Assembly: GCA_003697105.1 (NCBI GenBank)
Contig: RFFQ01000177.1
Span: 1-14,959 of the forward strand
Length of the DNA stretch: 14,959 nt
DNA from: Gemmatimonadota bacterium
GTDB lineage: Bacteria; 4572-55; J002
Reading direction: 5' to 3'
Shown here piece by piece: positions 2,518 through 14,580 of this stretch. The notes under the pieces were generated by a model that ran no database searches, had not been told where the DNA came from, and worked only from the letters and a program-made list of their open reading frames with translations. How positions within the stretch are numbered: the first letter of the stretch is position 1; the number at the start of each line of letters is the position of its first letter. Made by a program: the position numbers and the translations under genes.

Positions 2518-5500
2518 CTACTGTTGACTCATCCCGCTCGTTTCGGGTCGCGGGAGTTCAATCGTAAATATTGCCCCTTTATCTTTGCCGCCACTTTCCA
2601 CCCGAATATCACCGTTCATCATATTGACCAAACGCTTGGCAATGGATAGCCCCAAACCGGTGGAGTGTTCTCCGCCGGTGGGTTTGGCGCTTAACCGGGC
2701 AAATTTGCCGAATATCTGGTTGAGGTCCTCTTCGGTCAAGCCCTGTCCTTGGTCACGGATGGAAATACTGACCATTGTTTCCGTTGTTTTAACCGTAATG
2801 AAAATCGATCTCTCCGGCGGGGAATATTTGATGGCGTTTGAAATCAGGTTATCAAAAATTTGGAGTGCGGCATTGGTTTCGCCCAAGACCATAACGGGTT
2901 CATCTGGCAGATCATATTCCAGCTTAATTTGCTTTTGAGCGGCACGATCCTGATAATCATCAATCGTGCGGCACAAGGGTTGGCGAATATCAAGGGGTTC
3001 TAGGGGTAACTCCTCTTGTACGGATTCCAGCCGGTAGGCATCCAAAATTTTTAAGACGAGGTTGTACATCCGGTCACCGCTTTCCTCAATCACGCCAAAA
3101 AAATGAGAGACGTTTTGGGGGTTAAACGACTTTTGATTTTTCCCCAATTGTGCTATACCTAAAATTACGGTCAATGGGTTTTTGAGGTCGTGCGAGACAA
3201 TCCCCATAATTTCATCTTTTTCCTGAATCAATTCTTGCAGTTTTTCCACAGCGGACTGAAGTTCGCGTGTTCGTTGTTCCACCTTCTCTTTTTCGAGGAT
3301 CAATTCTTTGTTTTTAGCCGCCAGTTCGGCGGTTCGTTGTTGCACCAGCTTTTTCAGGTGAAGGGATTGCTGTTTGATGCGGTACGTTCGCCACTGTACG
3401 AACCCAAAAATGCTCAAAAAACTAACCACCAGGCACAAAAGATAAAACGGAAACGTTTGATAAAAATACGGCTTAATTTCAAACTGAAGTTGTTCGCCTT
3501 CTGGGTTCCACACCCCATCGATGTTGGAGGCAGTGACCCGAAACGTGTATTTTCCCGGGGAGAGATTCGTGTAAATCGCTTCGCGATAGGTCGTGGGACT
3601 CACCCAAGTCGTATCAAAACCGGCAAGTTGGTACTTAAAATGGATTCCGCGCGGGGTGTTTAAACTGAGGGCACTGTAATGGACGATAATTCGCCGGCTA
3701 CGGGGGGAAAAGGAGAGGTTTCCCGTTATGTCATAGGGTTGATTATTGACCCAAAATTCCCGGATATACACTTTTGGAGGGGTTTTGTTGATGGGAATGT
3801 TTTGGGGATTAAACCCCGCAATTCCTCCTAACGTCGGTACCCAAATCGTACCTGTACGGGCAGGTAGCACTTTGGAGGTTGGCGTACATTCTGATTCCCG
3901 CATTCCATCCTGCTGGTCAAATACCCGACAATGTACTGCCGGCAAGTGCCCATCCATGACGGCATTGACCTTCGATTTTGCCACACGGATAATTCCTAAG
4001 TTACAGGGAATCCAAAAGTTATGATGCTCATCTTCCAGAATATCGAACAGATTATCATTGGGTAAGCCCTCCGCGGTGGTTAGGGTGGCAACCTTTCCAT
4101 TTTTGATCCGGCTGATGCCGCCGTTTTGGGCAACCCAGACCGTACCATCCGGTTCAAAATAGGTGTGGAAGACAATGTCGCTGACTAAACCATCGGCTTT
4201 TGTGTACTGGCGTTGAATTGCACCGTTGTGGATCACATTCAGACCGCCCCCGCTGGTGCCGATCCAGAGCTTGCCTTGGGGGTCTTCCCGAATGGACATG
4301 ATAAAATTACTGCTGAGACCGGTTTCAACATTGAATATCTGCTGAATCCGCCCATTTTCCAGTTGTACGACACCACCGTTGCGGGTTCCGACCCATATCC
4401 GGTGTTGGGTGTCCTCGTACAATTCCCGGATTTGATCGTTCGGTAATCCGGTTACCCGCTGTTCTCGTCCTAAAGAATCCACCTGAAATAATCCACCGTA
4501 TGTACCAATCCAGAGCTGTTGGCGATGATCGACGAGTAAATCACGAATGCGTTTCCCAGCCAGATCGGTTTTTAGCGGGTAAAGTACCACCCGGTTGTTG
4601 TGAATCCGGTTTAGGAAGCCTTCATCCGTGCCAGCCACCAAATCCCCATTGGAAAGTTCAACAATACTATTGACGATATTGCCGTGCAAGCCCTCATCGG
4701 CACCGTAATTGATAAATTTACCATTGCTGAGCTGGTACAAACCACCCCGGTAGGATGCCAACCACAAACTTCCTTCGGTATCAAACCAAAAATCTTTGAT
4801 AAACGGGTCTGCCAACCCTTCCAATTGCCCGAGCCGATCCCATTCTGTGGCAGATTGCGTTTTGCGCCACAATCCAGAGGCACTCGCTAGCCAGAGCGTG
4901 CCGTATGAATCCACATGAATGTTGAGGACATTTGTTGGCGGTAATGGTATGCGCTGGTAAGTGGTGCCATCAAACTGAAACAGTTCCGTGTCCGTACTGA
5001 ACCAGAGCGCCTGATCGCTGTAAAAAATACCCCAGATATTATTCGTCGGTAGTTTTTGGGTCTCTGCCGTATATACGGTCAGGCTATCGCCCACCAATCG
5101 TCCAATCCCCTGATTGTGCCCGGAAAACCAGATTGCCCCCTGCTCATCTTGTGTAATACCGGAAATATAAATATTCTGCATAAATGGATGATCATTGATC
5201 GGGTAAAACCGGTGATGATCGTAGCGCCACAGTCCGGTGCGCGTACCGATCCAGAGGTTATTCGTCCGATCCACAAACAGGTGTTCAATGAATCCGACCG
5301 AGTCAGAAATCACCTGAAATGTCTGTTGGTCGTAGGCAATTAAACCCCCGTTTTCCGTGCCTAACCAGAGTGTACCGTTTTGATCTTCCGTGAGACAACG
5401 GAAAAGGTTGGAATGGATTCCCGGCGTGTTTTCTTTGGTGAATGTTGTAAAATTGAGACCGTCAAAGCGGGTAACACCGCTGAACGTGGTAATCCAAAGG

Positions 5501-5697
5501 TAACCATCGTGTGTTTGGAGGACATCGGTGAGGTTATTGGAGGGTAAACCCTCTTCCATTGACCAATGCCGGAGGACATATTGGGAGAGCTTCTTTTCAG
5601 GGGGTAAGCCGGCTTTTTCCGCCGCAGAGACCCTTTGGCAGATGATTAGGCTGATCAGAAGAAAAATGACACGATGAAATCTCACGGAATTTCTCAC
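2518..5697 (-). CDS. Membrane sensor histidine kinase with double two-component-regulator propeller
   Basis: This is a membrane histidine kinase that should sense a periplasmic ligand and pass phosphate to a response regulator. From the GTG at 5697 it has 1059 residues: a signal peptide (about 1-25), then 14 propeller blades with LWIGT-like motifs (about 30-640), which fits two seven-bladed propellers. A Y_Y_Y domain (about 680-744), one membrane helix (749-769) and a coiled coil (772-829) follow. The kinase core has the H-box SHDLKNP with His836, N-box DNLISNAIKYSP (from 949), G1 DQGQG (982-986) and G2 TGLGLS (1013-1018). All catalytic boxes are intact. There is no receiver domain or AraC-type output as in hybrid relatives, and no response regulator nearby, so the partner lies elsewhere. 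The start is uncertain: GTG at 5697 and GTG at 5685 both keep the signal peptide, while the frame extends to a TTG at 5805. No clear Shine-Dalgarno supports any of them. Confidence 0.93.
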   Translation of the reverse strand: MRNSVRFHRVIFLLISLIICQRVSAAEKAGLPPEKKLSQYVLRHWSMEEGLPSNNLTDVLQTHDGYLWITTFSGVTRFDGLNFTTFTKENTPGIHSNLFRCLTEDQNGTLWLGTENGGLIAYDQQTFQVISDSVGFIEHLFVDRTNNLWIGTRTGLWRYDHHRFYPINDHPFMQNIYISGITQDEQGAIWFSGHNQGIGRLVGDSLTVYTAETQKLPTNNIWGIFYSDQALWFSTDTELFQFDGTTYQRIPLPPTNVLNIHVDSYGTLWLASASGLWRKTQSATEWDRLGQLEGLADPFIKDFWFDTEGSLWLASYRGGLYQLSNGKFINYGADEGLHGNIVNSIVELSNGDLVAGTDEGFLNRIHNNRVVLYPLKTDLAGKRIRDLLVDHRQQLWIGTYGGLFQVDSLGREQRVTGLPNDQIRELYEDTQHRIWVGTRNGGVVQLENGRIQQIFNVETGLSSNFIMSIREDPQGKLWIGTSGGGLNVIHNGAIQRQYTKADGLVSDIVFHTYFEPDGTVWVAQNGGISRIKNGKVATLTTAEGLPNDNLFDILEDEHHNFWIPCNLGIIRVAKSKVNAVMDGHLPAVHCRVFDQQDGMRESECTPTSKVLPARTGTIWVPTLGGIAGFNPQNIPINKTPPKVYIREFWVNNQPYDITGNLSFSPRSRRIIVHYSALSLNTPRGIHFKYQLAGFDTTWVSPTTYREAIYTNLSPGKYTFRVTASNIDGVWNPEGEQLQFEIKPYFYQTFPFYLLCLVVSFLSIFGFVQWRTYRIKQQSLHLKKLVQQRTAELAAKNKELILEKEKVEQRTRELQSAVEKLQELIQEKDEIMGIVSHDLKNPLTVILGIAQLGKNQKSFNPQNVSHFFGVIEESGDRMYNLVLKILDAYRLESVQEELPLEPLDIRQPLCRTIDDYQDRAAQKQIKLEYDLPDEPVMVLGETNAALQIFDNLISNAIKYSPPERSIFITVKTTETMVSISIRDQGQGLTEEDLNQIFGKFARLSAKPTGGEHSTGLGLSIAKRLVNMMNGDIRVESGGKDKGAIFTIELPRPETSGMSQQ

Positions 5698-5700
5698 GGA
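5680..5700 (-). repeat. Short direct repeat carrying two candidate GTG starts
   Basis: TCTCACGGA (+ strand) occurs at 5680-5688 and 5692-5700, exactly 12 bp apart. Because 12 is a multiple of three, each copy places an in-frame GTG-AGA at the start of the kinase gene (5697 and 5685). The duplication creates the two alternative starts; both precede the signal-peptide hydrophobic core. Confidence 0.6.
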
Positions 5701-5744
5701 TAACAGGTGATAAACGTAAAAATGGATGATGGTCACGCGATTTA

Positions 5745-5763
5745 CCACATTTTCACGATGTGG
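5745..5763 (-). promoter_or_regulatory. Hairpin in the leader between TonB receptor and kinase
   Basis: CCACAT (5745-5750) and ATGTGG (5758-5763) form a perfect 6-bp inverted repeat with a 7-nt spacer, about 50 bp upstream of the probable kinase start. It lies in the 177-bp gap between the two - strand genes. It could be an operator or an RNA hairpin. No T-run follows on the - strand, so it does not look like a terminator for the receptor gene. No convincing promoter was found in this gap. Confidence 0.3.
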
Positions 5764-5874
5764 CGAGTCCCTAACCCTCAAACCACTTTCATTTCCGTGT
5801 GGCAAGGGGTTTCCGTAACCCGGTTGTCTGTCACCGAACGCAATTTGAATTCCGAAATTTCATATCAGAAGGTA

Positions 5875-8460
5875 CTAGAACGTATAGCGCAGGTTGAACC
5901 AGAAGGTTCTTTTCTCAACTGATGGAGTGCCAACGGTACGGGATTCATCTTCATCGCCGGCATTGGCATTCATCGGGTAGAGCTTTTGATCGTTGAGCAC
6001 ATTTTTCAGTGTACCCATTATCTCCAGATTTGATCCCCATTGGTATTTGATTCCCACATTAACCAGATGGTTGCTCTCTATCGGCTTACCGGAAGGGGTG
6101 TACCACTGCCAATAGTAGAGGTAGTTCAGGGAGAAAGCCCACTGCGTGAACGGAAAGGCAAAACATTGAAGACGGGTTACGTGTTCTGGATAGGCGCGAA
6201 AATGCTTCCCGGAAGTATTACCGGGGATGAGATACATGCTACCGCCGCTACCGGTCTGACTTTCTGGAGCGTTTAGTACTTTCGTCATGGAATGGCTCAA
6301 CGTGGCGTTCATCCGGTGAGTTTCGTAAATAACAGAGGCTTCGTAACCGAAGGTTTTGATCCGCCCCTTGTTATTTTTATAAAACCAATACCCATTCCAG
6401 TCCCCGGCGACATCCGAACCAATATCGGGCATTTCATAAACCACGGTATCCCCAAATTGGTTGACAATTTCCCCACTGGGTACCGAAATGATTCCCACAT
6501 CCAAAATCTGATCCAGTATATTATAATAGCCCACTACATCCAACGTCAACTGCGGGTTGGGTTTGTACTGCACCGCCAATTCATAATTTGCCATTTTTTC
6601 CGGCAGGGTTTTCCCCACATTCTGCTGAACACTATCGGGGTGGGTATTTACATAATAATATAGAATCGAGTCCGGGTTTTCCACAGAAAACACAGGTGTA
6701 AATGTGGGGATTTGGTACGCTTCAATCCGGTTGTGATTTTCATCCCGCAAGTACCCGTCCAACCGGAAACCTCCGCTGTAATTGAGGCTGACTGCGCCTC
6801 GAAAACCGGTCTGCCAAGATAACCGAAAATTTAGACCGGGCATCGCTTCATACAGGACGCCCAAACGAGGGGTAAGATTATTGCCCCAATGAGGGTGATG
6901 GTCATATCGCATCGCCGCAAATGCATCCACCGCCGGCAATATGGTGTAATAGTCTTCTGCAACAAAGCTGTACATATTTAGTGTGTTTGGATAGACGTAG
7001 GTATAGCGTTCATTTGCCCATGCACTGAGGGAATCCTCAATATTCAGGATAAAATTATTGCCATAGCGATTCTTCTGCCCAGAAACATATTGTTTGAACT
7101 CAAAACCAAGTGCCGAACGGTGCTTGTTAATCCATCCATTGCTGGTGAATAGAATTTTTGTGCCATACCGGTCTTCCCGCGTGCCACCCATTCGCAAACC
7201 TGAATTGGAATGTAATAGGTATTCATCGCGTTCGTACGTCAGATTCACTTTAAACCCGAGTTTTGCGCTAATATTATGGGTATAGGAATTGAAAATGCTG
7301 AGCAAGGTTTGTTGGACTTTTTCCCGGTCGCGGAAAAAATTGTAATTATCTCGATATTGATCCACATACATCACATTAAATTTTAATTTATTGTAACCTA
7401 AATTTACTAAAAATGTAGAATTATCCCCCCGTTTGATACGGTAACCCCGTTCTGAGACCTTCAGTCCTTGCCGTTCAATGGTTGTCCAGCCTTTATTTTT
7501 CTGTTTTTGCCCGTGATATTCGCTGAATCCAAGATACACATAGGTGCCCAGTTCGCCTTTTGACAAGACGGTACTGTTGAAATTCTCAAATGACCCGTGA
7601 TGGTACCGGTCTAACCCCAACGCGGCACGGAAGGTACTTTGGTTTGAAGGTGCCGAGAGATGGTTTTTGGTGACGATGTTGATGACGCCCAGAAGCGCAC
7701 CTTGACCCAGCGTGACGGAACCGGGACCCCGAATGACCTCGATCCGGTCAATGTAGGACATGTCCAAGCTGTTGAGGAGCGCATCCGGCGGTCCCCAAAA
7801 CCACTCGGTGTTGATCGTGTGTCCATTGACCTGAAACAACACTTTGGAATTATTGTCGGGGGAGAGTCCCCGGAAGGCGGAAATGAGATCATCGGAATCT
7901 TCCACTAAAAAAAAGCCCGGTACAAAAATGGTTAAGAGTTCGCTAACTGTACGGGCGCCACTCAATTCGATCTGTTTGCTGGTAATTGCCGTCACCGAAA
8001 CTGGTTGCTTGCGATTTTCCGAAATCACGTTGGAGGCAACGGTCAAATCTCCGGTGTAGAAAAAGGAGGCTGAAGATGAGCCGCTGATAAAACCGGTTTG
8101 CTTGAACTGTTCCAGTACCAAGAGACCAATATCCACCGAGGAACGTCCCCGTTTGAGCTGTCGCTGAATGAAGTCGATCATATTTTGTCCGTAAAGTGTT
8201 ACACTTTTCCCCTGACTAAAAATGTCCAGATCGATGTAATTGACCAGCGGCATCATGATATTGTAAACGTCGTGTGGTGTAACATCTTTATTTTGAAGTA
8301 GTTGTGTTTTGACTTCGGCTAAGATGGTCTGAACTTCGCTCGCATCATAAGCGATGACCGGTTTGGTCAAATCAACGAAGTCCTCTGCCATTCCCGGTAG
8401 CCCCTTTAACAGAAGCAGGCTGGCGGTTACCAACATAATGATTATCGGTTTACGGAACAT
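5875..8460 (-). CDS. TonB-dependent outer-membrane receptor with an unusual N-terminal extension
   Basis: This gene encodes an 861-residue outer-membrane transporter driven by TonB-ExbBD; its substrate cannot be told from sequence. Residues 1-25 are a signal peptide. Residues 26-138 form a mainly helical extension that I do not recognise and that looks like neither an STN nor a carboxypeptidase-regulatory-like domain. The plug follows (about 139-269), with IEVIRGPGS (240-248) and ALLGVINIVTK (255-265). The rest is a beta-barrel ending in the aromatic Phe typical of outer-membrane proteins. No SusD-like partner is next to it, so a SusC-type glycan system is unlikely. The ATG at 8460 is preferred because GAGG lies about 7 nt upstream and the signal peptide begins there. 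An in-frame GTG at 8508 directly follows the TAG of the upstream gene and would add 16 polar residues before the signal peptide. The TIR/WD40 gene ends 48 bp upstream, so joint transcription is likely. Confidence 0.93.
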   Translation of the reverse strand: MFRKPIIIMLVTASLLLLKGLPGMAEDFVDLTKPVIAYDASEVQTILAEVKTQLLQNKDVTPHDVYNIMMPLVNYIDLDIFSQGKSVTLYGQNMIDFIQRQLKRGRSSVDIGLLVLEQFKQTGFISGSSSASFFYTGDLTVASNVISENRKQPVSVTAITSKQIELSGARTVSELLTIFVPGFFLVEDSDDLISAFRGLSPDNNSKVLFQVNGHTINTEWFWGPPDALLNSLDMSYIDRIEVIRGPGSVTLGQGALLGVINIVTKNHLSAPSNQSTFRAALGLDRYHHGSFENFNSTVLSKGELGTYVYLGFSEYHGQKQKNKGWTTIERQGLKVSERGYRIKRGDNSTFLVNLGYNKLKFNVMYVDQYRDNYNFFRDREKVQQTLLSIFNSYTHNISAKLGFKVNLTYERDEYLLHSNSGLRMGGTREDRYGTKILFTSNGWINKHRSALGFEFKQYVSGQKNRYGNNFILNIEDSLSAWANERYTYVYPNTLNMYSFVAEDYYTILPAVDAFAAMRYDHHPHWGNNLTPRLGVLYEAMPGLNFRLSWQTGFRGAVSLNYSGGFRLDGYLRDENHNRIEAYQIPTFTPVFSVENPDSILYYYVNTHPDSVQQNVGKTLPEKMANYELAVQYKPNPQLTLDVVGYYNILDQILDVGIISVPSGEIVNQFGDTVVYEMPDIGSDVAGDWNGYWFYKNNKGRIKTFGYEASVIYETHRMNATLSHSMTKVLNAPESQTGSGGSMYLIPGNTSGKHFRAYPEHVTRLQCFAFPFTQWAFSLNYLYYWQWYTPSGKPIESNHLVNVGIKYQWGSNLEIMGTLKNVLNDQKLYPMNANAGDEDESRTVGTPSVEKRTFWFNLRYTF

Positions 8461-8508: not shown

Positions 8509-11500
8509 CTAATCACAATGGTTATCCACTTTTGCCGGTAACGTTGGGCAAACTTTGCAGTATGGACGGTTACCAAAATAGCGTTCCCACTCTGCGGGTG
8601 TTAGATTCCGTCCAGCGGTACGGCATGCTAGGTCGATCAGTTCTTTGGATGTGAGCGCCCACAGGCGAATCGCACCATCCCAACTCCCGGTGACCAGCCA
8701 CTGCCCATCGGAACTGATGGTCATTGTCGCGATGGCATCCGTGTGCCCTTCCAGTAAAATAGGCTCTTCCGACGGATTTTGGCTTGTCAAATCCCACAAG
8801 CGCGCGGTTTTATCCCAACTGCCGGTGATCAGCCAATGATTATCAGGGCTAATGATAATTGTGGAGATGGGGCTTTGATGACCCGGTAAGACCACCGGAT
8901 TGTGAACGGGTGCTTCAGACGCCAAGTCCCATAAGCGAACGGTATTATCTTTGCCGCCGGTGGCAATCCATCGATTATCTGGACTAATTGCCACCGCGGT
9001 GATGCCGCTGAAGCCCCATTTATCCTCACCATGCCCGTTCAATATCATTTTTTCTTTGGCGGGGGTGCGACTCAAATCCCATAAATGGGCGGTATTATCT
9101 TCACTGCCGGTGAGGAGCCATGTTTCGTCTTGGCTGAAAGCCATGCTGAGGATGGCACCCTGGTGGGCAGAGAGATGTTGTGGTTCGCCACGTTGGGGTA
9201 ATTTCCATAGCAGAACGTGCCCATCTGTTGTGCCGGTTGCCAACCATTTCCCCCCGGAACTGAGGGCGATTTGGGTTGGCGGTGTTGTGTGGGTATATAA
9301 AATGTCGCTGGCGCCTGTTTCCACATTCCAACGTCGCAGGGTGCCATCTTGTCCAATGGAGAATACGTGGCGGCTGTCCGGAGTGAACGTCAAATGCAAC
9401 ACCGCGCCGTCATGTTCTCCCAACCGCTGGGGTTCGGCAGATGATGTGAGGGACGTGGTGTCCCACCGGTAAAGCAAGCCATCTGCTCCGCCACTGGCAA
9501 CCCATTTCCCATCCGGACTAATTGCCGCATCGTTTACCACATCCCCATGTTTACCGAGAATCACCGGATGAGGTCGATCCTCTTGAATGTTCCACAATTG
9601 GACAGAGCTATCCCGGCTGGCAGATACCAGCCAGCGGTTGTCCGTGCTCATCGCCACACCGTTAATTGACTTTTTATGGCTGGACAAAACGACCGAAACG
9701 GCTGTTGGATCGGGAGGGTTCAAATTCCAGAGTCGTGCAGAGCCATCATCACTGCCGGTAATCAACCATCTACCGTCGTGACTAATCTGAAGCTGTTTCA
9801 CACCCGCTTCGTGGCTTTTTAAGATGGTGGGGTTCAAGGCGGGGTTATCTCGCGTTAAATCCCACAAACGGGCGGTATGATCCCAACTACCCGTGATCAG
9901 GTAGTGATTATCCGGGGTAAACGCGACACTCAAAACGGGACCGGTGTGCCCCTTCAAAATGTGCGGCATCTCTCGTAAATCCGGTAAAAACCAAAGCCGC
10001 GCCGTGTGGTCGGCGCTCGCGGACGCCAGATAGCGTCCATCGGCACTAAATGCTGCTTGGTAGATAAGACCGGTATGTCCGGTCAGAACGGTCCTGAGAG
10101 TGACTACCGGATGCTTGAGCCGCCATAGCCTCAAGGTGTTGTCACGGCTGGATGTGACTAACCAGCGGCTATTGGGGCTGAACGTCACATCATAGACTTG
10201 CCCCGTGTGTCCCGTCAATGGAACGGATGGTTTCCGGGGTGATTTTAAGTCCCATAATCGGGCGGTATTATCCTTGCCGGCAGTGGCGACCCACTTTCCG
10301 TCTGGACTGAACGCGACATCGGTGACACCACCGCTGTGACCGGTCAATACCAGCGGTACGGTATTCGTGCCGGCGGTCATGTCCCAGATTTTGGCAGTGC
10401 CATCTTCGCTGGCGGTGGCAATGTGAGTACCGTCTGGGCTAAGTACCAGCGTATTGATGGGTTTATCATGGGCATAGATTATCTGGGGGGGTGTATTTCC
10501 CTCCAACGACCAAATCCGGAGGGTGCCATCTGCTCCGGCGGTGATCATCTGGTTTCGATCCGGTAGGAATTGCACTGCCTGAACGGCGGTTACATGACCG
10601 GTGAACTGCACCGGTTCCCGGAGGGGTATGCCGTTTTCATCCAGCGACCAGAGCTGTACGGAACCATCGCGGCTGGCGGTTGCCACAAGGCGTTGGGTGG
10701 CATCAAACAGGGTTGCGACTGCCGTCACCGGTTGGGTATGCCCTCCCAAACCGATCCCGCCGGCATTGAGCAAACCATTTCGTAATGCGTTTTCTGCGGC
10801 GGGAACTGTTGGCAGACCCTCCCGTTGCGTCGCATTGATCGCTTCTGCGGCTAACAACAAACTCCGCTGGGGACGGCTGTTGCTTAAGGCTTTGGCAGAT
10901 TCTGCCACCAACTGCCGTGCCATGGCGATAATGCGTTGCCGGTTTGCTTCTTGTTCATTTTGCAGGGCGATCACCCGCTGGCTATCGGCAATTGCTTTTT
11001 GCGCCAATGCCTCTTGTTCTTTACGTTCGGCAATCACTCGTTGGCTATCGGCGATACTCTTTTGGCGCAGGGCTTCTTGTGCGTTTTGCAATGCGATTTC
11101 GCGCTGGCGGATGGCTTCTTGTTCATTTTGGAGGGCTCGTTCTTTTTGGTGTATGGCTTCTTGTTCGTTTCGGAGTGCAATTTCCCGTTGGTGCAGTGCT
11201 TCCTGTTCATTTTCAAATGCGATTTGGCGTTGGTGTAGGGCTTCCTGTTCATTTTGAATGGCGATTTCCCGCTGTCGTTCGGCTTCCATTCGTTGGAGCA
11301 GTGCCACTGTCGCCAAAAAAAGGGCGATCAATAACCCAAGGGTGATCGCCGTCAACGTGATCCGGCGGCGGCGTTCTACCGCCAGTTCGGCGGCACGGAT
11401 TGCCTGACGGCTGGCGCCGATCCATGCCCGTTGCAGGGCGGTCGGTGCCGGTTTTTTCTGCCCTTCATCGGCGTCATAGAGCCATGCTTCTGCTACGGAG

Positions 11501-14500
11501 AGTTCATGACCGCGCAACAGGAGGTCATGGCTGCGATTCTGTTTATCCCACTCCGTTGCACGCTGTGCCCATTTGGTGTGGTTTTTCACATGCTCCCGGT
11601 CCGTATCCAGTGTCCGAATGAGTTGCCCAAACGTGGTTTGAAATTCACTTCGCCGGTGTTCAAAATCGATCCATTGGATGGTGCGCAACCCTGCCGGGAT
11701 GCTGTCTTCATCTTCAACGGTATGGTAAAGTACCGGCACAATTCGTTTATTCAAACGCTGGGCATACTCAACTTCAGCGGTGCAATAAGGGGACTCTATG
11801 GCGGCAGGGGAAATGATAAACAAAAAGTTATCGGAGTTTTCAATACCGTGATAAATTTCCTGCTGGAAATCCACACCGGTATCGATACTTTCTTGATCGA
11901 ACCAAGTCGTTTTACCCTGTTCTTGTAACATTTCGTTCAACAAGCGCGCAAAATCGGCATCCGCACGGGAATAGGAGATAAACACATCGAGGGAGATGTC
12001 CACCGGTTGGGAGGCACTCTCTTGGATAAACGCTTCGTGAACCGGTAAGGCGGGATGATGTTTATGTGTTCGTGCGGTTTCCAACCAACTTTCTGCTTTT
12101 TGTAAGGCATGACCGCGCAACAACACCGTTGTGTTGTTGTGTTGGCGTTGCCAGCGCAACGCTTTGACCAACAGCAACTTATGCTGGTCGTAATATGTCT
12201 GCTCGTGGTGAAGTTTTTCAATCAGTTGGGCAGTCGCTTTGAGATAGACACTACCAGCGCTTTGTTTTTCCGTATCGATGAGATCGAGGAACTGAACTCG
12301 AGCTCGCTCCACCGGAAATTCACCGGTGGAAGTGGGTTCGAGCCGTAGAGAGATTATCCGTTTGTTCAGTTGGGCGGCATATTGTAGCTCATGTTGGCAG
12401 GTTTCGGTGGCGAGTGATTCCGGTGATTGCAGAAAGACCACCGTGGTAGTTTCTTCAATGGCTTTGTGTATTTCATCTTGGGATTCAATGCCGGTATCGC
12501 CGCGGGTTGGATTTGTCCACACCGTGAAGCTATGGCGCATTAGCGTTCGTTTGATTTGGTTCATTATCGCCAGGTCTGGTGGGGCATAGCAGATGAAGAC
12601 ATCGGTCACCAATCCGTAGGCATTTTTGTGACCTTCAGTAATGTATTCACAGTGCAGATCGGTGGGTTCGCAGGGGGGTTGTTCCCGCTCAAAGTGAATT
12701 TTTAGCCACGCTTCTGCTTGTAAGCGTTCTTCGCCCACCGGTAGATACGAGTTGCGGCGCTGATGATGTTCCCAATCCAATGCTTTGATCAAAATTTGGG
12801 TATGCTGACGGACATAATCTGCATGTTTTTGGATGCGGGCTACCAATTCCTGTAGCGAACGCTGGATGTCATCCTCCTGTTCTCGAAAATAGAGCCACTT
12901 TTGCTGGCGGATCTCGTCTGTGAGGGTTTCGTTTTCCGGAAGCTGGTACTGCTCATTTTCTGAACGGAGGGTTACGGTATTTTGCGCCATGACGTCCCAG
13001 TCCGCTTCGGAGGGCATCTGGTGGAGGACGGGGATGACCCGCTTGTTCAAGTGTCGTGCCCAGAGCAATTCTTTGAGGGTGTTCATCGAGCGAACACTGC
13101 CGGGAGAAATTACAAATACGATGTTATCCGATTTGATAATGCCTTCCTCATGGGACTTCTGAACATCCGTTTCAAGCGGGGCTTGGTGGGGATCGAACCA
13201 CACATTTAAGCCCTGATCCGCCAATCCCATGAATAATGTCCAGACCCGTTCGAGGCTGTCCTGAGGGGAGTACGAGATAAACACATCTTTAATGTCGTGC
13301 CAATCCGTAGCAAGTTGGGATTGGTAACGCTGTTTAAGGCTCTCCCGAATGAAGGTATGGTGGAGTTCGGTTGGCTGGGAGACCCCTTGACTCTGAGCTT
13401 CGGTTTCAAGCCATTGAACGGCGGCATCCAACGCCTCACCGGAAAGTAAATCGGCTTCTTTCCGGTGATTTTTATCCCATTTAAGTGCCTGTACCAACAG
13501 CATTTTATGGGTATGGGTTGATTCCCATTCGTCCTCAATCTTGCCATAAATCTGATCGAGGTTTTTTTCGTACTGTACATCATTGAGCGCCGTAAAGTCG
13601 GTGTACGTCAGTTCGCGGATTTCTGGCGGCATTTCTTGATAATCAACCGGTTCGATGAGTACCGGAAGGATACGTTTATTGTACTTGAGCGCCGTTTGCA
13701 GTTCAAACAGTAAAAAGGGAGATTTGCAAGAGGCAGGGGAGATATAAAAAATGACATTATCTGCCTCTTGAATGCCTTCTTCTAGGGCGTCTTCAAATTT
13801 GATGTCTTTGCGGATGTCTTTGGTGTCAATCCAGGTGGTAATGCCTCGCCGGAGCAAGAAGCGGTTAAAGCGTTCCATGATGGGCGCATCCACGCGGGCA
13901 TACGCCATAAAGACATGGGTCATCCAATTTTCGGCGTATTTTTTACTTTCGCAGATGAATTCCGCGTGACGGTGTGTCGGGTGACATGGGGGTTGGGCGG
14001 GAGGTTTGAATTCGCGTTTCAGCCACTGTTCCGCTGCCAGCAGATCATCCCCGGTCAGGAGGTAGGCTTCATCTTTCTGATTATGTTCCCATTCTAGTGC
14101 TTTGTATAACAATTGGGTATGGCGGTGGACATAGTCTTCTTCAGTTTGAAACACGGCAATGAGTTCGCGGATTGCCGTATCCAAATCATCAATCGCTTGC
14201 CATGCTTCGAGCGGCTTATCCGGTTCGTACTTTTCGCGGGCGTAAATCCAATTGGTTTTTTGGATGACCGGTGGCATTTTGCTGGTATCGGCTTCCACGT
14301 GGAGGATGGGGATAATCCGTTTACCGTGTTGCAGCGCATGTTCAATTTCCCGGTAGCAGTAAGGGGATTCCACAGAATGGGGGGAGATGATAAAGATAAA
14401 ATTGTGAGCGAGTTCAATACCATTATCAATCCGGCGTTGATAATCGTCACCTTTGGGAATATTGATGAAATCAAACCAAGCATCAAATCCGGCGGTACTT

Positions 14501-14580
14501 AGCTGCTGGTAAAGACGGCGGGCAAAATGCAGACTTTCTTTCCGACCGTATGAGATAAAGGCATCTTTAATATCGTTCAT
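8509..14580 (-). CDS. Giant five-TIR / coiled-coil / WD40 repeat protein
   Basis: This 2023-residue protein has five TIR modules starting near residues 4, 221, 430, 658 and 864. Each is followed by a related helical linker with a KALEWE-like motif (160, 364, 599, 806, 1007). One predicted membrane helix follows (about 1074-1094, after RRRR), then nine 14-residue coiled-coil repeats (1103-1228), a helical stretch, about 16 WD40 repeats (1279-1979) and a tail containing CRTAGRNLTPAEWERYF. TIR domains bind partners or cleave NAD+; WD40 propellers are recognition scaffolds. The glutamate matching the catalytic Glu of TIR NADases is present in every module (E78, E293, E504, E731, E936), so NADase activity is possible but unproven. 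No P-loop NTPase is seen, unlike STAND-type sensors. The ATG at 14580 fits the expected TIR start but lacks a clear Shine-Dalgarno; no in-frame ATG lies close upstream. A role in defence, stress or envelope signalling is inference. The gene lies directly upstream of the TonB receptor. Confidence 0.95.
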   Translation of the reverse strand: MNDIKDAFISYGRKESLHFARRLYQQLSTAGFDAWFDFINIPKGDDYQRRIDNGIELAHNFIFIISPHSVESPYCYREIEHALQHGKRIIPILHVEADTSKMPPVIQKTNWIYAREKYEPDKPLEAWQAIDDLDTAIRELIAVFQTEEDYVHRHTQLLYKALEWEHNQKDEAYLLTGDDLLAAEQWLKREFKPPAQPPCHPTHRHAEFICESKKYAENWMTHVFMAYARVDAPIMERFNRFLLRRGITTWIDTKDIRKDIKFEDALEEGIQEADNVIFYISPASCKSPFLLFELQTALKYNKRILPVLIEPVDYQEMPPEIRELTYTDFTALNDVQYEKNLDQIYGKIEDEWESTHTHKMLLVQALKWDKNHRKEADLLSGEALDAAVQWLETEAQSQGVSQPTELHHTFIRESLKQRYQSQLATDWHDIKDVFISYSPQDSLERVWTLFMGLADQGLNVWFDPHQAPLETDVQKSHEEGIIKSDNIVFVISPGSVRSMNTLKELLWARHLNKRVIPVLHQMPSEADWDVMAQNTVTLRSENEQYQLPENETLTDEIRQQKWLYFREQEDDIQRSLQELVARIQKHADYVRQHTQILIKALDWEHHQRRNSYLPVGEERLQAEAWLKIHFEREQPPCEPTDLHCEYITEGHKNAYGLVTDVFICYAPPDLAIMNQIKRTLMRHSFTVWTNPTRGDTGIESQDEIHKAIEETTTVVFLQSPESLATETCQHELQYAAQLNKRIISLRLEPTSTGEFPVERARVQFLDLIDTEKQSAGSVYLKATAQLIEKLHHEQTYYDQHKLLLVKALRWQRQHNNTTVLLRGHALQKAESWLETARTHKHHPALPVHEAFIQESASQPVDISLDVFISYSRADADFARLLNEMLQEQGKTTWFDQESIDTGVDFQQEIYHGIENSDNFLFIISPAAIESPYCTAEVEYAQRLNKRIVPVLYHTVEDEDSIPAGLRTIQWIDFEHRRSEFQTTFGQLIRTLDTDREHVKNHTKWAQRATEWDKQNRSHDLLLRGHELSVAEAWLYDADEGQKKPAPTALQRAWIGASRQAIRAAELAVERRRRITLTAITLGLLIALFLATVALLQRMEAERQREIAIQNEQEALHQRQIAFENEQEALHQREIALRNEQEAIHQKERALQNEQEAIRQREIALQNAQEALRQKSIADSQRVIAERKEQEALAQKAIADSQRVIALQNEQEANRQRIIAMARQLVAESAKALSNSRPQRSLLLAAEAINATQREGLPTVPAAENALRNGLLNAGGIGLGGHTQPVTAVATLFDATQRLVATASRDGSVQLWSLDENGIPLREPVQFTGHVTAVQAVQFLPDRNQMITAGADGTLRIWSLEGNTPPQIIYAHDKPINTLVLSPDGTHIATASEDGTAKIWDMTAGTNTVPLVLTGHSGGVTDVAFSPDGKWVATAGKDNTARLWDLKSPRKPSVPLTGHTGQVYDVTFSPNSRWLVTSSRDNTLRLWRLKHPVVTLRTVLTGHTGLIYQAAFSADGRYLASASADHTARLWFLPDLREMPHILKGHTGPVLSVAFTPDNHYLITGSWDHTARLWDLTRDNPALNPTILKSHEAGVKQLQISHDGRWLITGSDDGSARLWNLNPPDPTAVSVVLSSHKKSINGVAMSTDNRWLVSASRDSSVQLWNIQEDRPHPVILGKHGDVVNDAAISPDGKWVASGGADGLLYRWDTTSLTSSAEPQRLGEHDGAVLHLTFTPDSRHVFSIGQDGTLRRWNVETGASDILYTHTTPPTQIALSSGGKWLATGTTDGHVLLWKLPQRGEPQHLSAHQGAILSMAFSQDETWLLTGSEDNTAHLWDLSRTPAKEKMILNGHGEDKWGFSGITAVAISPDNRWIATGGKDNTVRLWDLASEAPVHNPVVLPGHQSPISTIIISPDNHWLITGSWDKTARLWDLTSQNPSEEPILLEGHTDAIATMTISSDGQWLVTGSWDGAIRLWALTSKELIDLACRTAGRNLTPAEWERYFGNRPYCKVCPTLPAKVDNHCD
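8512..8643 (-). other. Conserved C-terminal tail after the WD40 array
   Basis: Residues 1980-2023 form a tail with CRTAGRNLTPAEWERYF, then RPYCKVCPTLP and four cysteines (1986, 2008, 2011, 2022). From memory, a similar tail ends many cyanobacterial and chloroflexal WD40 signalling proteins, with a YF..xPYxxTCPxLP-like ending. Its function is not known to me. The CxxC pair could be redox-active or bind metal, but only one such pair is present. Confidence 0.6.
8644..10746 (-). other. WD40 repeat array, about 16 repeats
   Basis: Residues 1279-1979 hold about 16 repeats with the pattern GH...SPDG..(L/V)ATGS.D.T.RLWDL, most spaced 42-46 residues apart. Repeat 14 carries a short insertion after GHGED. 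Repeats 10-12 are the most degenerate. Sixteen blades allow two eight-bladed propellers, or two seven-bladed ones with two spare repeats; the sequence does not decide. Such arrays bind proteins or other ligands and often form the sensor end of bacterial signalling proteins. Confidence 0.9.
10897..11274 (-). repeat. Nine 42-bp (14-residue) coiled-coil repeats
   Basis: Residues 1103-1228 consist of nine 14-residue units of the type QREIALQNEQEALH. The first five match best; the later ones drift (for example QKSIADSQRVIAER). The periodicity is visible in the DNA as recurring TTCTTGTTCATTTT-like segments every 42 bp on the + strand. The region should form a long helix or coiled coil joining the membrane segment to the WD40 part and could drive oligomerisation. 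Confidence 0.85.
11299..11361 (-). other. Predicted transmembrane helix between TIR array and coiled coil
   Basis: Residues 1074-1094 are a hydrophobic run rich in Leu, Ile, Ala and Val with no charges, flanked by RRRR on the N-terminal side and by RMEAERQRE on the other. It is long enough for one membrane span. By the positive-inside rule the TIR array would be cytoplasmic. Related cyanobacterial-type proteins carry a similar segment at this place, from general knowledge of the family. Confidence 0.7.
11401..14580 (-). other. Array of five tandem TIR-plus-linker modules
   Basis: Residues 1-1060 repeat a unit of about 215 residues five times: a TIR beginning with a VFISY-like strand, then a linker with HTxLLxKALEWE, LLxGxxLxxAExWL and a terminal FIxES-like motif. 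TIR1 and TIR5 are the most canonical, with a WFD strand and SPYC before the catalytic-type Glu. TIR2 keeps SP but has FLLF in place of the Cys. TIR3 (RSMNTLKE) and TIR4 (TETCQHE) have changed loops. The modules are clearly homologous but divergent, so the duplications are old. Confidence 0.9.

Follow-up and report, generated by a model that had tools for sequence, protein, structure and literature searches.

A Gemmatimonadota protein with five TIR modules and a WD40 array belongs to a bacterial family of ordered TIR cassettes with a predicted Toll-like topology

Introduction

Active TIR assemblies all contain a head-to-tail strand in which the active site lies between two TIR domains, and single TIR strands require extra stabilisation (PMC11364022). 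In AbTir, SPARTA, TIR-SAVED, TIR-STING, Cat1, and SARM1 one TIR per chain is gathered through a ligand-binding domain, and the number and order of TIRs needed to switch on the enzyme have usually been studied with filaments of such single-TIR chains. Asp, Trp, and Glu residues are important for the NADase activity of AbTir, D167 being essential according to the mutants (PMC11374754). More than one TIR per chain is found in eukaryotic proteins of architecture unrelated to that discussed here, namely Dictyostelium TirE with two tandem TIRs (PMC13142454) and the mollusc tandem-TIR Tolls, also with two (PMC4929906).

The domain types considered below, and the plan in which a single TIR is followed by a membrane helix and WD40 repeats, are already known in kind; an example is a Scytolyngbya protein (L036) with the order TIR-linker-membrane helix-WD40 and no NTPase. 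In animal Toll-like receptors the sensor lies outside the cell, a single helix crosses the membrane, and the TIR is inside, activation presumably occurring by association. In the nSTAND1 proteins (PF20703) an NTPase is present.

The DNA analysed here, referred to as the window, is a whole contig of 14,959 bp from a draft genome of 4.18 Mb assigned to a Gemmatimonadota bacterium. It encodes a protein in which five TIR domains precede a membrane helix, a coiled coil, and a WD40 array. The linker, the membrane helix, the WD40 array, and the lack of an NTPase are shared with L036, which has one TIR as opposed to three or more in the family described below and is devoid of its specialised TIR subtypes. 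In the searched literature, which covered few subscription journals, no bacterial family with a cassette of three, five, or nine TIRs is described.

A Gene for Five TIR Modules

The gene and its surroundings are presented in Table 1. The open frame spans 2027 codons and an in-frame stop is located just upstream of the ATG, thus the 5' end of the gene is complete despite the proximity of the contig end, 379 bp upstream.

Table 1. Coordinates of the features of the window; residue numbers refer to the five-TIR protein.
Feature	Position	Strand	Residues	Remarks
TIR(A1-B1-A2-B2-C)-TM-coiled coil-WD40 gene	8509..14580	-	2023 aa	Uninterrupted ORF, ATG start; Pfam
TIR A1	14113..14571	-	4-156	TIR_2, 88.3 bits; model vs SARM1/SPARTA TIRs, Z ~18
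TIR B1	13501..13923	-	220-360	TIR_2, 82.0 bits; Z 20.7 to 4w8g
TIR A2	12796..13293	-	430-595	TIR_2, 58.1 bits; Z ~16 to plant TIRs RPV1/RUN1
TIR B2	12175..12609	-	658-802	TIR_2, 67.2 bits; AlphaFold2-modelled; groups with B of paralogue L009, 100/98
TIR C, membrane-proximal	11572..11994	-	863-1003	TIR_2, 113.6 bits; Z 19; aligns to AbTir, Cat1, SARM1
Helical linker behind TIR C	11386..11571	-	1004-1065	One copy after every TIR
Single membrane helix	11284..11367	-	1072-1099	Hydropathy; ERRRR before helix, predicted cytoplasmic side
Coiled-coil stalk	10885..11286	-	about 1099-1232	14-aa repeats; sequence
WD40 array	8641..10755	-	about 1276-1980	16 Pfam matches, E 1e-153
TonB-dependent outer-membrane receptor, downstream	5875..8460	-		Pfam Plug + beta-barrel; likely ATG 8460
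Sensor histidine kinase, downstream	2518..5805	-		Reg_prop propeller + Y_Y_Y; Pfam

All five TIR_2 matches exceed the curated Pfam cut-off of 28 bits. AlphaFold2 was run on two overlapping three-TIR pieces, a single run on all five modules having been dropped since the three-TIR homologues align ambiguously to five. The model of A1-B1-A2 reached pLDDT 91 and pTM 0.72, and that of A2-B2-C pLDDT 86 and pTM 0.83. Structural alignment of the models matched the predicted folds of A1, B1, A2, and C individually to solved TIR structures (Z 16-21), while B2, with the same order of secondary-structure elements and no individual entry among these alignments, is a TIR by sequence and model. A pTM of 0.83 over three modules speaks for a defined arrangement as opposed to a floppy one, and a near-rigid disposition of the modules is predicted. 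Whole-model Foldseek matches to SARM1 chains, with an rmsd of over 20 A, were disregarded as domain-level matches.

An earlier sequence-only reading of this DNA had listed five TIR domains, a membrane helix, a coiled coil, and 16 WD40 repeats, and had noted that a P-loop NTPase was missing. This domain content is borne out by the Pfam matches, by the one hydrophobic segment, and by the 14-residue repeats between it and the WD40 array, as well as by the models, which leave none of the five modules without a TIR fold. A Walker A motif is absent from the protein sequence, and no NTPase appears among its listed Pfam matches; the protein thus lacks the P-loop NTPase that lies between TIR and sensor in STAND/NLR-type proteins. 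The coiled-coil repeat is encoded by a 42-bp tandem repeat (window positions 11062-11271), and the length of the stalk may differ with the number of its copies.

Behind each TIR lies a conserved helical linker of about 62 residues, therefore the real repeat unit is a TIR together with its linker. The five units of the window protein represent three types, arranged in the order A, B, A, B, C.

A Family of Ordered TIR Cassettes

The source genome encodes two further multi-TIR proteins with three TIRs each: L009, of 1138 aa, has a WD40 C-terminus, and L010, of 1438 aa, ends in a propeller and about ten membrane helices. In an alignment, residues 427-1070 of the window protein (A2-B2-C) are colinear with the cassettes of both paralogues; the identity of L009 to the window protein is 54%, and to L010 49%. 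A scan of genome contigs revealed relatives that span the whole cassette, with identities of 34-54%, in Bacteroidota and Cyanobacteria as well as on contigs binned as Roseobacteraceae. The last of these (L024, L028, and L029) have relatives mostly in Bacteroidota and are probably mis-binned.

A total of 51 multi-TIR ORFs were found, mostly in cyanobacteria and Bacteroidota. On a tree of 74 TIR+linker units three subtypes separated, C (100/98), B (100/99), and A (91/97). According to subtype HMMs, to which the window units did not contribute but many of the surveyed proteins did, the order is A-B-C in 47 ORFs and A-B-A-B-C in three, and one protein has nine TIRs. A B unit invariably stands behind an A unit and TIR C invariably adjoins the membrane helix. 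The window protein, with ordered A, B, and C units, a linker after each, and then the membrane helix, can be considered a member of this family. The other two A-B-A-B-C carriers are L066 from Adonisia turfae and L094 from a cyanobacterium. The survey model comprised three TIRs, hence one-TIR and two-TIR proteins are under-counted; Adonisia has an apparent two-TIR ORF.

The view of the layout as uncommon, put forward in the sequence-only reading, stands in part. The family is rare, patchy, and not described in the searched literature; on the other hand, the window protein is no singleton and represents an enlarged version of a conserved family with three TIRs, present in several phyla.

Some members carry additional modules. 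L020, L022, and L030 have an extra N-terminal region of about 135 aa before the TIR cassette, resembling nucleoside 2-deoxyribosyltransferase (PF15891), the match being over the cut-off in L030 and under it in L020. The genes L010:1747-6063 (-) and L031:9938-14146 (+), from different phyla, have a common C-terminus consisting of a propeller-like region and about ten membrane helices.

Predicted Membrane Topology and C-Terminal Sensors

Nearly all homologues contain one clear hydrophobic span of 22-28 residues with asymmetric flanking charge. Across 50 multi-TIR proteins, Lys/Arg average 6.1 in the 20-residue stretch preceding the helix and 3.1 in that following it; the bias places the TIRs inside in 46 of the 50, and one shows the opposite bias. 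This uniformity is striking, although as homologues these proteins are not independent of each other. Since the helix separates the TIRs from the WD40 array and the flanking charge puts the latter outside, the window protein is probably an envelope sensor, with the TIRs in the cytoplasm. Against this stand the mostly cytosolic location of WD40 domains and the statistical nature of the positive-inside rule.

The module beyond the helix varies across the family: WD40 repeats, CHASE2, WG repeats with an FGE-sulfatase domain, weak TPR matches, a coiled coil only, or a propeller with many helices. CHASE2, described as an extracellular small-molecule receptor domain (PMC8195603), substitutes for WD40 in several members, and the WG/FGE and TPR-like C-termini do not settle the side of the membrane. 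Cyanobacterial genes of the CHASE2 type (L025:13269-17133, L034, L088, L094, L095, and L113) adjoin a DUF928 gene and often a TPR-CHAT or FHA-CHAT gene, and DUF928 is also adjacent in the copy on a Kovacikia plasmid. The DUF928 and CHAT neighbours have signal-peptide-like N-termini, and together with the CHASE2-type TIR genes they possibly form a multi-gene envelope system. In another arrangement, a gene for an LRR protein with a signal-peptide-like N-terminus (L020:12581-14611 (+)) lies 22 bp downstream of a gene for a three-TIR protein with a membrane helix, on the same strand; its product is possibly a separate LRR sensor for the TIR receptor.

The main competing view of the topology places the WD40 array in the cytosol, with the hydrophobic segment serving merely as an anchor; an intracellular danger such as a phage protein or stress would then lead to NAD+ loss. 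In defence and death proteins of the STAND type, WD40 arrays usually act as sensors inside the cell. APAF-1 is an example (PMC13174449). A further point in favour of this view is the resemblance of the linker to the region following the NTPase in some nSTAND1 proteins: the linker profile matches it in two of four strong PF20703 proteins of Adonisia (E 8e-8 and 9e-5, the set searched being small), and a third shows a marginal match in the same relative place. The family lacks the NTPase, and the TIR cassette may occupy its place. The clear membrane span, its strongly asymmetric charge, the exchange of WD40 for an extracellular domain, and the signal-peptide-like N-termini of neighbours all stand against a cytosolic array, which we regard as unlikely. 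The charge bias, the CHASE2 swaps, and these neighbours, together with the TonB receptor and the histidine kinase encoded next to the window gene, favour an extracytoplasmic sensor.

Catalytic Residues

In an alignment of TIR C of the window protein with AbTir, E936 falls on E208, Y932 on W204, and D895 on D167. The remaining modules differ in how many of these residues they keep. A1 (D37, E78) and C (D895, E936) have an intact Y-C-x-x-E motif and thus the full Glu, Asp, and aromatic set of AbTir; B1 (D252, E293) and A2 (D463, E504) have lost the aromatic-Cys pair and have a partial set; in B2, E731 is present and N690 replaces the catalytic Asp. Judged by these residues, the five TIR folds do not amount to five enzymes, as the full Asp and aromatic-Cys-x-x-Glu set is confined to A1 and C.

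Among 162 units of the family the catalytic Glu is retained in 56 of 57 A, 51 of 55 B, and 41 of 50 C units, and the Asp aligned with D167 in all 57 A and 41 of 50 C units but in only 10 of 55 B units. This conservation pattern is the basis for the division of labour that we infer among the subtypes, in which A would be catalytic, C usually catalytic, and B structural. The fold and the catalytic Glu and Asp of A1 and C are shared with AbTir, SPARTA, TIR-SAVED, TIR-STING, Cat1, and SARM1, and a need for clustering is likewise expected; the family differs from them in that its TIRs are linked covalently.

The same pattern bears on the view that the TIRs form a non-enzymatic scaffold, as in Toll-like receptors and adaptor proteins, with A, B, and C recruiting different cytosolic TIR partners. 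Three specialised subtypes in a fixed order would suit such a scaffold, as would the loss from B of the Asp needed for AbTir activity, the lack of Glu in TIR C of several cyanobacterial members, and the presence of other TIR proteins in the source genome. Yet Asp, Tyr-Cys, and Glu are retained in nearly all A units, which would be needless for a pure scaffold, and most members have no conserved adjoining partner gene. A purely scaffolding role is therefore improbable.

Genomic Setting and Distribution

The start of the TonB receptor gene lies about 50 bp after the window TIR gene, as seen from the junction sequence, and the genes of the TonB receptor and the histidine kinase are putative members of the same operon. 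With these two genes as neighbours, no known defence gene was found beside the window gene, nor was a ThsA-type effector found in the window, which ends 379 bp upstream of the TIR gene. The PADLOC and NCBIfam system models match the TIR domain only, and NCBIfam equivalog cut-offs are not reached; the ThcB4 model scores 113 bits against a cut-off of 220, which leaves the protein outside Thoeris ThsB/ThcB. No neighbour common to all family members was found, the CHASE2 subset alone having one. Elsewhere in the window a perfect 17-bp tandem repeat of 2.8 copies (positions 234-280) directly precedes the start codon of priA at 281, and Rfam gave no match in the window.

At a threshold of E <= 1e-100, the cassette occurs in 12 of the 386 cyanobacterial genomes scanned; among 395 genomes of Bacteroidota the seed is the only carrier, and a set of 386 genomes sampled across the bacteria contains two carriers, the window's own genome being one. 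Where present, the cassette is often multiplied, with seven copies in Flexithrix, five in Adonisia, and four in UBA2561. Two complete cassettes are plasmid-borne, annotated merely as 'TIR domain-containing protein', with transposases nearby. No cassette match was found in phage records, and an IMG/VR scan with the cassette gave no encoded relative.

These data also bear on the view that the proteins are envelope-stress or developmental receptors whose TIRs give rise to a nucleotide signal and which take no part in defence or death. The TonB receptor and sensor kinase adjoining the window gene, the CHASE2-adenylate cyclase and putatively exported proteins encoded at the loci of CHASE2 members, and the many copies per genome agree with it; the patchy rarity and the plasmid copies near transposases are more typical of conflict genes. 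We consider it quite improbable.

Origin of the Five-TIR Form

On the tree A1 and B1 of the window protein branch apart from A2-B2-C and have different nearest relatives. The inserted B units of the two cyanobacterial A-B-A-B-C proteins cluster together (0.997), apart from that of the window protein. This separate branching indicates that the A-B-A-B-C form arose at least twice, an A-B pair being added N-terminally each time. A recent internal duplication was rejected as an explanation of the five TIRs, because A1-B1 and A2-B2-C lie on different branches. One might suspect that two paralogous three-TIR genes were joined into a chimera during assembly, as the contig comes from a MAG, the genome has similar paralogues, and the relatives of A1-B1 and A2-B2-C differ. 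This is hardly credible, given that the join is in frame and coincides exactly with the boundary of a unit, and that the A-B-A-B-C order recurs in two cyanobacterial genomes, in one case on a contig of 7.7 Mb.

The largest member, a 2637-aa protein of Cytophagales UBA2561 (L018:5870-13783 (+)), has nine TIRs in the order A-A-B, A-A-B, A-B-C. Remnants of C-type linkers sit between its blocks, which were apparently fused with loss of the C TIR.

A Proposed Receptor with a Pre-Built TIR Strand

The reading that we favour, although we would put it at slightly less than an even chance, is that the window protein is a single-pass receptor of Toll-like topology in which sensing leads the covalent TIR strand to assemble and to cleave NAD+. 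Outside the cytoplasm, the WD40 propeller array on its coiled-coil stalk of about 130 aa would respond to a ligand, to a partner at the surface, or to damage of the envelope. Inside, A1-B1-A2-B2-C with its short helical linkers would constitute a covalently wired strand. Sensing would alter the association of the stalks so that strands of two or more receptors meet, and NAD+ sites would form at the TIR-TIR junctions; catalysis would probably fall to A1 and C, and A2, B1, and B2 would serve mainly as structural modules. The NAD+ would be consumed or turned into an ADP-ribose signal, with growth arrest, cell death, or signalling further downstream as the outcome. The basic unit of the family would be A-B-C, and added A-B pairs would make the strand longer and may reduce the threshold for activation.

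The idea that the protein carries its own TIR cluster, put forward in the sequence-only reading, is sensible in view of the head-to-tail contacts between TIRs that active TIR enzymes require (PMC11364022). According to the models the A-B-A-B-C chain could be a covalently stabilised strand; the linkers may, however, block the head-to-tail (BE) contact between neighbouring TIRs. NAD depletion and a role in defence, both suggested in that reading, are putative functions of the window protein.

For the family as a whole, we propose more tentatively, as a possibility still open to considerable doubt, bacterial receptors of Toll-like topology with a pre-built strand, in which a conserved A-B-C cassette grew to five TIRs or to nine in different lineages and is combined with interchangeable extracytoplasmic sensors. 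The resemblance to Toll-like receptors would be one of analogy and not of membership: these have an LRR ectodomain, in contrast to WD40 or CHASE2 here, whereas the family has the reversed N-to-C order, several TIRs, and conserved catalytic residues. If the predicted topology is right, the family would be the closest bacterial parallel to the Toll-like receptor layout.

If the proposal is true, envelope sensing would be linked directly to TIR assembly. The partners with signal-peptide-like N-termini (DUF928, CHAT, and LRR proteins) point to sensing at the level of the envelope, as opposed to the cytosolic triggers known for most bacterial TIR systems. In this family the number and order of TIRs are encoded in one protein, and the natural variants with one, three, five, and nine TIRs on comparable scaffolds would allow strand length to be tested as a control of TIR activation.
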